Shown piece by piece: positions 49,528 through 63,916 of a stretch of 64,000 nucleotides of DNA (position 1 is the stretch's first letter; every line of letters begins with the position of its first letter). A model generated the notes under the pieces. The model saw nothing but the letters and a program-made list of their open reading frames with translations, ran no database searches and was not told the DNA's origin. The DNA lies in the NCBI GenBank assembly GCA_027622375.1, contig JAQCAB010000007.1, positions 1 to 64,000 on the forward strand, written 5' to 3'. A program made the translations under genes and the position numbers. Origin of the DNA: Bacteroidota bacterium (GTDB taxonomy: Bacteria; Bacteroidota; Ignavibacteria; UBA10030; UBA8401).

Positions 49528-50892
49528 TTATGATAGAGGTTCAAAATGTGCAGAAAAATGCCTTAATAATTTTGGTTCTTTGATAATTTTAAAACCACTT
49601 AATTCTTCCCTTTTTTTATAAACTTCTTCACCAACTTCAACTAAATAATCCATATGACTTTGGGTGTAAACTCTTCTTGGAATTGCCATTCTCACATACT
49701 CATTTGGAGCTGCAACAAATTTATTTAATTGTTCATCAAATTTTCCAAACATCACACTTCCGATTTCACATGATCTAACTCCTCCCTCAATATAAAATGC
49801 GCAGACAAGTGATTGGCCTGGAAAATGTTCAGTTGAAATATGTGGCAACATTTTTTTTGCGTTAATAAATATTGCATGCCCACCAACTGGTTCAATAATT
49901 GGAATTCCAATTTTTATAAATTTTTCTCCAACATATTCAATCGAACGGAGTCTGTATTCTAAATATTTTTCATCAACAATTTCATTTAATCCTTCGGCAA
50001 TTGCTTCCAAATCTCTTCCACTTAATCCGCCATAAGTCGGGAATCCTTCAGTTACAATTAATTGGTTTTTCGCTTCTTCAGCAACTTCAGAATCGTTCAA
50101 AGCTAAAAATCCTCCCATATTTACGAGCGCATCTTTTTTTGCACTCATAGTACATCCATCTGCATAACTAAATATTTCTTGTGCAATTGATTTTACGGAA
50201 TGATCAGAAAAACCTTTTTCATGTTTTTTAATGAAATATGCATTCTCAGCAAATCTGCATGCATCAATATAATATGGAATTTTATATTTTTTAGCGATTG
50301 AGCTAACTTCAATAATATTCTGCATTGAAACTGGCTGTCCGCCAACAGCATTATTTGTAATTGTCATTATTATCAAGCCAACATTTGAAGCACCAACTTC
50401 ATTTATTTTTTCAAGAAGCAATTTACAATCCATATTCCCCTTAAAATAAAAATTACTTTCAGGATTAATTGGCAAATCAACAATTACCATATTATTTACA
50501 GCTGCATTAGCCCGAGTTGTATCAAAGTGAGTATTACTTATTGATACCTTTCCCTTATTATGAAAAATTTTAAATAAAATGTTTTCGGCTGCACGGCCTT
50601 GATGTGTTGGGATGATGTGGTTAAAACCAGTTAATTCTTTTACTGTTTTTTCAAATCTAAAAAAACTTTTTGCTCCTGCGTATGATTCATCAGCTTCCAT
50701 TAATTTTCCCCATTGGTTTGAACTCATAGCCGAAGTGCCACTATCAGTTAATAAATCAATTACAACATCTTCAGCTTTTATTTTAAAGGGATTATAAAAT
50801 GCATTTTTTAATATATTAATTCGCTCTTCTCGAGTTGTAAATGAAATATGTTCTACTGATTTTATTTTAAATGGTTCTATTATTGTTTTCAC
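49528..50892 (-). CDS. tnaA: Tryptophanase (tryptophan indole-lyase)
   Basis: 454 residues from GTG 50892. A beta-eliminating PLP enzyme that splits tryptophan to indole, pyruvate and ammonia. PLP lysine: Lys253 in CTMSAKKDALV. It is distinguished from tyrosine phenol-lyase by EIGS at 376-379 (TPL has MERG with a substrate-binding Arg) and by His445 in LRHF, the position of His463 in the E. coli enzyme (Phe in TPL). Other landmarks: LLTDSGTSAMS, PTHQGRAAE, YYIDACRFAENAYFIK. No Trp-containing leader peptide of the tnaC type is visible in the 93-bp gap upstream. Confidence 0.92.
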   Translation of the reverse strand: MKTIIEPFKIKSVEHISFTTREERINILKNAFYNPFKIKAEDVVIDLLTDSGTSAMSSNQWGKLMEADESYAGAKSFFRFEKTVKELTGFNHIIPTHQGRAAENILFKIFHNKGKVSISNTHFDTTRANAAVNNMVIVDLPINPESNFYFKGNMDCKLLLEKINEVGASNVGLIIMTITNNAVGGQPVSMQNIIEVSSIAKKYKIPYYIDACRFAENAYFIKKHEKGFSDHSVKSIAQEIFSYADGCTMSAKKDALVNMGGFLALNDSEVAEEAKNQLIVTEGFPTYGGLSGRDLEAIAEGLNEIVDEKYLEYRLRSIEYVGEKFIKIGIPIIEPVGGHAIFINAKKMLPHISTEHFPGQSLVCAFYIEGGVRSCEIGSVMFGKFDEQLNKFVAAPNEYVRMAIPRRVYTQSHMDYLVEVGEEVYKKREELSGFKIIKEPKLLRHFSAHFEPLS

Positions 50893-57724: not shown

Positions 57725-58929
57725 TCAGACATTAAGTTCACCTTCCCATCTTGCAATTACAGCGCTTGCCAAACAATTCCCGATAACATTTACTGCGGTT
57801 CTTCCCATATCTAAAATTTCATCTACTCCAAGAATAATTGCAACACCTTCGAGCGGCAGACCAAAACTTGCAAGCGTTCCAGCTAAAATTACAAGTGATG
57901 CTCTGGGAACCCCAGCAACACCTTTACTCGTCACCATTAATGATAACATCATCAAAATTTGAGTTTCAATTGAAAGTTGAATGTTTGCAGCTTGAGCTAC
58001 AAAAATTGCTGCAAGAGATAAATACAAAGTGCTTCCATCTAAATTAAATCCGTAACCAGTGGGGATTACAAATGAAACAATTCTTCTCGGGACTCCAAAT
58101 TTTTCCATCACCTCCATTGCTTTAGGCAATGCAGCTTCGCTACTTGTAGTTGAAAAAGCAATTATTGCCGGTTCTTTAACTGTTGCAATAAATTTTTTTA
58201 TTGGGATTCTCGCAATCAACATTACTGAACCTAAAACAAAAACAACAAATACAATTAATGCTCCATACAATGTTAAAATTAAAAGTCCGAGATTTAATAA
58301 AATACCAATTCCTTTGCTTCCAACTGTTACAGCAATTGCAGCACCAACTCCGATTGGTGCAAACTTCATAACAAGCGAAGTAAATTTAAACATTGTTTCA
58401 GCAAGTGAGTCGCAAAAATTTAAAATTACTGAACGCTTTTCATCTTTAATTGATGCAAGAGCAATACTGAATAAAACTGAGAATAAAACAATTTGCAAAA
58501 CCTCGCCATGCGCCATTGCCTCAATTATACTTTGCGGGATTATATGCGAAATTATTTCTGAAAAGGATTGTTTTTTTGCAGCAAATTCTGCAACATTTGG
58601 ATCTACTGCTAAATCAACTCCAACTCCTGGTTGAGTTAAATTGACAGCAAATAATCCAATAAAAAGTGCAATTGTGGTAACAACTTCAAAATAAATCAGG
58701 GATTTTATTCCCATTCTTCCAACTTGTTTTAAATTTCCATGGCCAGCAATTCCTAAAATTAAAGTTGAAAATATCAATGGAGCAATTATTGATTTTATTA
58801 ATCTGATAAAAATCGTGCTGAGTGGTTTTAATGAAGTTCCAAAATTTGGAAATAACCATCCAATTAAAAGACCAACTGTAATCCCCACAAAGATCCATTT
58901 TGTTAAAGTTAGTTTTGGGAATTTCATTT

Positions 58930-58933
<4 letters not shown>
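57725..58933 (-). CDS. Dicarboxylate/amino acid:cation symporter (GltP/DctA family)
   Basis: 402 residues, eight membrane helices plus two re-entrant hairpins. Family signatures: IAFSTTSSEAALPKAMEVMEKFGVP (HP1), GYGFNLDGSTLYLSLAAIFVAQAANI (TM7), LMVTSKGVAGVPRASLVILAGTLASFGLP (HP2) and DEILDMGRTAVNVIGNCLASAVIARWEGEL (TM8, with the substrate-binding Asp/Arg section). It would import glutamate, aspartate or C4-dicarboxylates with protons or sodium. The start overlaps the stop of the M1 peptidase gene by 4 bp, so both are co-translated, a natural link between peptide digestion and uptake. Confidence 0.93.
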
Positions 58934-61937
<3,004 letters not shown>

Positions 61938-62618
61938 TTAATTGAGCGAAGTGCAATAACGATTATAAATTCCATCAAGGAATGTATTTATCGCAAGGCA
62001 TGAATCTTTTGCAGCTTTTATTGTTTTGGATTCCATTTCGGAAGTTGAAACATTTTCTTTTAAAATATTTTTTTGAACATCTGAATGTTGGATATCTGCA
62101 ACTTCATGAACAGAAAAATATTTTAATCCATCTTCTGAATTAATCCCATAAAAATTTTTTAATCCATCAATTTTTACTTTTGCAACTTCCGGTATTTGAG
62201 ATTCATAAGCATATAATGCTGCAACTCCCTCTTGAAAATTTTCACTTCTCGAAAGGCGTCTGAATTCTTTTAAAGTTGTTTCTGTCTCCGGAAAAAGTTT
62301 TGTGTTTTTTGCATCATCTTCAGTTACACCGAGTGAATTACAAAATTTAACCCAAAGTGATGGGTGATTTTCATTCCCATTTTCTTCTTCCATTAAATTT
62401 TCGAGTAATTGTTGTCTAATTTTTAATGATGGAGTATTTGAATGAATTGCACTTATAAAAGTTGGGAATTCCATCATAAAATGATAATACTGTTTTGCAT
62501 ATTCCTGCAATGCTTCTTTTGATAATTTCCCTTCGTTCCAAGTTACATAAAAAGGATGATTGAGCATTTTGTTTTGTTCAATTGTTGAATTTATTTTTTG
62601 TGTGAATGTTGTTTCCAT
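61938..62618 (-). CDS. CADD-like haem-oxygenase-fold diiron protein, candidate self-sacrificing pABA synthase
   Basis: 226 residues, all-helical TenA/PqqC-like fold. By eye it aligns with Chlamydia CADD at a constant offset of three residues. All CADD key positions that I recall are kept: Tyr24 (CADD Tyr27, the sacrificed side chain), iron ligands Glu78, His85, Glu139, His171, Asp175, His178, plus Tyr138 and Lys149 (CADD Lys152). CADD makes p-aminobenzoate from its own tyrosine, replacing PabABC in folate synthesis. It is encoded 9 bp before tpl. Alternatives within the fold include other diiron oxidases or PqqC-like proteins, but the motif set fits CADD best. Confidence 0.82.
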   Translation of the reverse strand: METTFTQKINSTIEQNKMLNHPFYVTWNEGKLSKEALQEYAKQYYHFMMEFPTFISAIHSNTPSLKIRQQLLENLMEEENGNENHPSLWVKFCNSLGVTEDDAKNTKLFPETETTLKEFRRLSRSENFQEGVAALYAYESQIPEVAKVKIDGLKNFYGINSEDGLKYFSVHEVADIQHSDVQKNILKENVSTSEMESKTIKAAKDSCLAINTFLDGIYNRYCTSLN

Positions 62619-62680: not shown

Positions 62681-63916
62681 TTAATCTTTATATAGTAAAA
62701 ATTTATTTCTGAGTTTGGCGAAATTATCAACTTCATTTTTCCATTTATTGCTTATTTTAAGATAATCGCTTCCCTTTAAAATGCCTTCTCTTACAAATGA
62801 ATTTCCGGCAAGTCGATCGAACCGTTTATTAGAAAATTTAAATTCACTTGGATACATTTTTTGTAAAATTGTTAAAACCGCAATTCCTGTTTTAATCGGT
62901 TGAAATAAATTTCTTCTGGTTACTTGAATAAAAACTCCGTTACAAGCTTCTCCATTATATTTTGTTGCATTACTTATTCCAGAATTATCAATTGGTGTAT
63001 AACTTTTTGGAACAAATTTAACTCCACTAAGTTTTAAAGAATTTAATTCAGTTGCAAATTTTTCTGAATCAATCCACGGCGCGCCAATAGTTTCAAATGG
63101 GTTTTCAGTGCCTCTTCCTTCGCTAACATTTGTTCCTTCAATCAAACATAAACCGGGATAAATTGCAGCGGTCTTCATTGTTTTCATATTCGGAGAAAGT
63201 TGCAACCAATTTAAATTTGTTTCATCATACCACATCGATCTCCGCCATCCATCAACTTTTACAACTGTTAAATTTGCTTTAATATTATTTTTTAAAAATC
63301 CTGAATTATTTGCCAGGATTGCTAATTCTCCCAAGGTCATTCCATGTTGAATTGGGATTGGAATTATCCCAACAAAAGATTTTAATGAATCAATCATTAA
63401 AGGGCCATCAACAACAGTTCCTCTAATCGGATTTGGACGATCCAAAATAATTATTGGAATATTATTTTCTGCTGCAGCTTCGATCGATAAAATCATTGTG
63501 CTTAAATAAGTATAAAATCTTGCGCCAACATCTTGAATATCAAATAACAATAAATCAATATTTTTTAATTTTTCAGCAGATGGTTTATTTTGATTTCCAT
63601 AAAGTGAAAAAATTGGGATTCCAGTTTTCTCATCAATTGAATCTTTAATATTCCCCTCAAAAGTTAATCCACGAATTCCATGCTCGGGACCAAAAAGTGC
63701 TGCAATTTTTACATTTTCTAATTTTTGAAGTTCATCAATTAAATGTTCACCGGTAGAAAGCAGTGCTGTATGATTTGTAATGACACCAATATTTTTACCT
63801 TCAATTAAATATTTTTCTTCGTTGATAATTTTATCGGCGCCAACTTTTATTTGAGAAGGTTGACTAAAAAGAAAATCAAAAACAAAAATAAAAAACAATA
63901 AATTTTTTTTTAACAT
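62681..63916 (-). CDS. namZ: Secreted NamZ-like exo-beta-N-acetylmuramidase (DUF1343/GH171)
   Basis: 411 residues with signal peptide (KKNLLFFIFVFDFLFSQ). DUF1343 landmarks: GKNIGVITNHTALLSTGEHLIDEL, ALFGPEHGIRG, GIPIFSLYGNQNKPSAEKLKNIDLLLFDIQDVGARFYTYLSTM, LDRPNPIRGTVVDGPL and EGTNVSEGRGTENPFETIGAPWI. Characterised family members remove N-acetylmuramic acid from the non-reducing end of peptidoglycan fragments. Here it could serve cell-wall recycling or feeding on other bacteria. A 62-bp gap separates it from the CADD-like gene. Confidence 0.9.
   Translation of the reverse strand: MLKKNLLFFIFVFDFLFSQPSQIKVGADKIINEEKYLIEGKNIGVITNHTALLSTGEHLIDELQKLENVKIAALFGPEHGIRGLTFEGNIKDSIDEKTGIPIFSLYGNQNKPSAEKLKNIDLLLFDIQDVGARFYTYLSTMILSIEAAAENNIPIIILDRPNPIRGTVVDGPLMIDSLKSFVGIIPIPIQHGMTLGELAILANNSGFLKNNIKANLTVVKVDGWRRSMWYDETNLNWLQLSPNMKTMKTAAIYPGLCLIEGTNVSEGRGTENPFETIGAPWIDSEKFATELNSLKLSGVKFVPKSYTPIDNSGISNATKYNGEACNGVFIQVTRRNLFQPIKTGIAVLTILQKMYPSEFKFSNKRFDRLAGNSFVREGILKGSDYLKISNKWKNEVDNFAKLRNKFLLYKD

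Follow-up and report, generated by a model that had tools for sequence, protein, structure and literature searches.

A CADD-family protein as the very likely source of p-aminobenzoate in a Bacteroidota genome without PabABC

Genes at the locus and the CADD-family protein

The window analysed here, a stretch of 64,000 nucleotides from a Bacteroidota genome, encodes on its minus strand a protein of 226 residues (61938..62618) that was annotated as a CADD-family p-aminobenzoate (pABA) synthase from its family match, residues and fold. Its ORF begins with ATG, just 5' of which lies a purine-rich stretch. Upstream by 62 bp is a gene for a NamZ-like exo-beta-N-acetylmuramidase (62681..63916, minus strand). 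Three further minus-strand genes follow downstream: a tyrosine phenol-lyase (TPL) of 461 residues in the same directon (60543..61928), an M1-family peptidase (58930..60546) whose start shares 4 bp with the TPL stop, and a Na+:dicarboxylate/amino-acid symporter family protein (57725..58933) that overlaps the peptidase stop, again by 4 bp. These three plausibly form an operon for peptide and amino-acid use. The original prediction had placed a tyrosine phenol-lyase gene 9 bp downstream of CADD, which proved accurate: the gap spans 61929-61937, and the lyase scores 782.3 bits on the TIGR02618 equivalog model, above its cut-off of 720.7. The window also contains a second beta-eliminating lyase (49528-50892, minus strand), which is tryptophanase-like and shares 48% identity with the TPL; the genome that carries it has no TrpE. 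It lies above the PRK13238 subfamily cut-off and below the equivalog cut-offs for TPL and tryptophanase.

The 226-residue protein had been proposed to be CADD-like, and sequence, tree and fold confirm it as a full-length member of the CADD family. It scores 276.1 bits (E=1.7e-82) on TIGR04305, the NCBIfam model of that family, for which the curated cut-off is 200, a match well outside what chance would give. Alignment with Chlamydia CT610 (phmmer, E=1.7e-46) pairs query residue 5 with CT610 residue 8 and is gapless across nine key positions, Y24, E78, H85, Y138, E139, K149, H171, D175 and H178. All nine are present in the window protein and stand, as predicted, exactly three residues before their Chlamydia counterparts. 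By this alignment Tyr24 and Lys149 are the sacrificial residues. The residue table assigns three histidines and three carboxylates as dimetal ligands (Glu78, His85, Glu139, His171, Asp175 and His178) and Tyr138 and Tyr167 as the metal-adjacent pair. Y40, Y44 and W89 are also retained; these are the counterparts of Tyr41, Tyr45 and Trp99 in Nitrosomonas europaea NePabS, where Tyr41 is the essential second tyrosine and Tyr45 and Trp99 form the radical path (PMC11965152).

The closest solved structure by sequence is 9pj4 (phmmer, E=1.2e-58), a '4-aminobenzoate synthase' that, judged from its peptide sequence, looks like a close relative of NePabS; PDB relatives bearing this name match at E=1e-58 and 4e-46. 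An AlphaFold model made with 31 homologues reached a mean pLDDT of 96.1 and a pTM of 0.92, and its top four matches in the PDB were all CtCADD (TM 0.91 by query and 0.96 by target, rmsd 1.3 Å, 37% identity). In the tree, which places long rows (CT610, PqqC and the short forms described below) unreliably, the window protein pairs with its homologue from a sister genome (L060, support 100/99) within a clade of 14 rows from members of the order in family f4 (99/98).

pABA synthesis in the host genome and across the order

The host genome measures 1.73 Mb in 48 contigs and is 100% complete with 0.4% contamination. A PF00425 search of this genome returned only one protein, an isochorismate synthase (menaquinone MenF) encoded directly upstream of menD, so PabB and TrpE are both absent. 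PabA/TrpG is absent as well, with no TIGR00566 match above the cut-off in the genome; three weak matches to this model are CarA, GuaA and PyrG. The single Aminotran_4 (PabC-fold) protein is the branched-chain transaminase IlvE, which leaves no dedicated PabC. FolP is kept (DHPS, 312 bits), folP being the sole pterin or late folate gene that the search covered. The original prediction held that this bacterium may make its folate precursor through CADD and named a complete pabABC set as evidence to the contrary. None of the three genes was found, an absence that, like all those reported here, rests on draft assemblies, and the proposal is strengthened by the presence of folP together with the family, residue and fold matches. 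The genome also encodes subunits I and III of a heme-copper aa3-type oxidase, an indirect sign that O2 is usable for the reaction.

The pattern is repeated in the sister genome G087, which is also public as the MAG F1-140-MAGs080 of a Bacteroidota bacterium (its CADD is L060, as a check of sequence identity confirmed). It encodes CADD, DHPS and, among PF00425 proteins, MenF only. Its CADD is 74% identical to that of the window, with every catalytic residue kept in both.

Taken together, these observations make it very likely that the gene encodes a self-sacrificing pABA synthase replacing PabABC in the host genome; its chemistry and in vivo role we infer from CtCADD and NePabS. That the CADD gene does not adjoin folate genes counts against this role. 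By homology, the dimetal centre would react with O2, after which an oxidising radical would hop via the conserved Tyr and Trp residues to Tyr24. The Tyr24 side chain would then be cut off the backbone, leaving Gly; O2 would supply the carboxylate oxygens of the freed ring and Lys149 its amino group. A given protein molecule would act no more than once, and the pABA would pass to FolP.

We surveyed 98 genomes of the order, calling CADD by TIGR04305 and PabB by PF00425 plus TIGR00553. Intact CADD was found as 11 genes in three families; one of these genes (L016) is truncated where its contig ends. PabB was present in none of the 11 genomes with intact CADD, nor in any of the nine that are at least 90% complete; in five f4 genomes, an NCBIfam check identified the remaining PF00425 enzyme as TrpE. 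Among genomes without intact CADD, 51 had PabB and 36 did not. Since the genomes are phylogenetically non-independent, the resulting association (Fisher p=1.6e-4, or 2.3e-3 at completeness of at least 90%) is to be read as support and not as proof; when families were tested singly, f4 alone gave p below 0.05 (p=0.015). A pterin-binding match (FolP or MetH) is present in almost every genome of the order.

The 36 genomes with neither PabB nor intact CADD (29 of them at least 90% complete; G082, G083, G041 and G055 are examples) serve as a warning. Because of them, CADD does not explain every PabB gap, and the absence of PabB alone does not prove that CADD fills it. They point to pABA uptake or another route within the order, and uptake is possible in these members.

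Family f3 shows another outcome. In three divergent homologues (L015 in G007, L017 in G008 and L018 in G006), Phe replaces the sacrificial Tyr and ligands are missing, and all three genomes have PabB. Such degenerate forms beside PabB are what loss of function would be expected to look like when PabB is present. L015 nevertheless scores 219.6 on TIGR04305, above the cut-off of 200, so this model alone over-calls.

Clustering of 80 CADD loci revealed lineage-specific neighbours, and among the sequences listed none was obviously related to folate. A search for plasmid-borne CADD gave only proteins of about 25% identity and no close match. Full-length CADD with all catalytic residues and a Tyr/Phe metal-adjacent pair also occurs in many filamentous cyanobacteria, including Okeania, Trichodesmium, Microcoleus and Spirulina (L079, L096-L100, L103, L105-L107, L120, L122, L124, L126, L127, L129, L131-L134 and L137-L139).

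Alternative readings of the locus

The window protein could be a CADD-family member that has stopped making pABA, or never made it, in a cell that imports pABA or folate. The related genomes lacking both routes are consistent with this, as are the degenerate f3 members, one still above the TIGR04305 cut-off. We consider it unlikely, since the window protein and that of the sister species, at only 74% identity, keep every catalytic residue, unlike the degenerate forms, and folP is kept. It is highly improbable that the protein is instead PqqC, TenA or another heme-oxygenase-like enzyme acting on some other substrate. Its matches to PqqC (61 bits), BesC (38) and TenA (34.7) are weak and far from the respective cut-offs of 240 (TIGR02111), 500 and 130 (TIGR04306), and in the residue table PqqC shows almost none of the ligands. 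CADD leads the fold matches by some seven orders of magnitude, with E of roughly 1e-16 for CtCADD versus 1e-9 or worse for PqqC, UndA, BesC and TenA, and identity is 37% to CADD versus 14-21% to PqqC, TenA and BesC.

It is also doubtful, and in our judgement quite unlikely, that the pABA synthase is functionally coupled to TPL, for example in managing tyrosine supply or phenol. In favour of coupling, only 9 bp separate the two genes, and the sister genome, where CADD is 74% identical, has the same NamZ-CADD-TPL-M1 order. However, CADD uses one peptide-bound tyrosine per protein, which is remote from the turnover of free tyrosine and implies no metabolic demand for TPL. TPL was above its cut-off in 47 of the 98 genomes and coincided with intact CADD in just two, both of one genus; 45 members with TPL lack intact CADD, nine with intact CADD have no TPL scoring above the cut-off, and at no other CADD locus examined does TPL lie beside CADD. 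The two genes also differ in history. Between about 61,650 and about 60,160, a tract that takes in the greater part of TPL and the beginning of the peptidase, identity between the two sister genomes is mostly 95-100%, whereas CADD and the outer flanks are only about 65-90% identical. This tract of about 1.5 kb (60160-61650) marks recent recombination between the two species, a history of TPL that CADD does not share. A search for an 'empty site' of CADD insertion yielded none, as no gene within 1.5 kb of TPL in related genomes is also a flanking gene in the window. The original prediction had left the pairing as either functional or only positional; co-occurrence in one genus and the separate recombination favour the positional side. 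The pairing thus looks positional, and TPL is probably not part of the pABA pathway.

Metal pair, short form and known systems

With the self-sacrificing pABA synthase as the preferred reading, the metal-adjacent residues allow a specific prediction. NePabS has two Phe beside its metals and prefers Fe/Fe; changing Phe to Tyr at 148 makes it cambialistic, and the change at 177, or at both, gives a preference for Mn/Fe (PMC11965152). Tyr138 and Tyr167 of the window protein are the same pair as in CtCADD (Tyr141/Tyr170) and, given this match and the NePabS results, they predict a Mn/Fe cofactor. In a sample chosen by similarity to the window, most related sequences had Tyr/Phe, and Tyr/Tyr was seen among full-length proteins only in the window, the sister genome, L128 and CT610. 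According to a 2026 review, CtCADD is the only known enzyme of its superfamily with Fe/Mn (PMC13108848).

Two genomes of the order, both without PabB, encode a short CADD-like protein (L019:1393-1941, minus strand, in G070; L020:1201-1758, plus strand, in G065). These proteins of 183-186 residues are about 30% identical to the window CADD and far under the TIGR04305 cut-off. They keep the equivalents of Tyr24, Tyr40, Tyr44, Glu78, His85, Trp89, Glu139, Lys149, Tyr167, His171 and His178, with Glu in place of Asp175 and Phe in place of Tyr138, and fold best onto CtCADD (TM 0.84 by query). No folate-gene neighbours were recognised by eye. Judged from residues and model, the short form is a candidate new family of pABA synthases. 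It does not account for the pABA gap in general, being present in only two of the 98 genomes. We tentatively offer a broader scenario, which we hold to be possible though not the likelier outcome, in which PabB was repeatedly lost in the order and its role passed to self-sacrificing enzymes of two kinds: a full-length Tyr/Tyr protein that would be a second Mn/Fe enzyme of the superfamily, and a form of about 185 residues, not described before, that would found a new family of pABA synthases. Natural experiments are available in the order, with Tyr-less homologues alongside PabB, and with native Tyr/Tyr and Tyr/Phe pairs to set against the Phe/Phe of NePabS.

The nearest characterised system is Chlamydia trachomatis CADD (CT610; PDB 1rcw, 8va9). 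It shares with the window protein the fold, the ligands, the sacrificial Tyr and Lys, and the equivalents of Tyr141/Tyr170; pabABC is likewise absent from its genome, and an O2-dependent reaction is expected in both. The two differ in sequence (37% identity), and the window gene lies away from folate genes. CT610 belongs to a known intracellular parasite, whereas the window host is an aerobic genome of an order that includes Ignavibacteria. No counterpart of the apoptosis role of Chlamydia CADD is expected for the window protein. NePabS (NE1434) has the same sacrificial residues and ligands and is also encoded outside a folate cluster, but differs in its Phe/Phe pair and in a loop of about 10 residues that the window protein lacks. 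CADD proteins of other Ignavibacteria, Kapabacteria, Neomarinimicrobiota and cyanobacteria (L061-L139) are about 42-57% identical to the window protein with the same catalytic residues, and nearly all have Tyr/Phe where the window has Tyr/Tyr. Compared with 1tpl and 2ez1, the neighbouring gene is a bona fide tyrosine phenol-lyase. Chlamydia and Nitrosomonas already provide precedents for the chemistry, and the window protein is a well-supported further member of their group. The biochemistry of this suicidal route to a precursor of an essential vitamin comes from one intracellular parasite and one ammonia oxidiser. Here the route seems to provide the pABA of a streamlined aerobic genome, and several families of the order seem to have taken it up.
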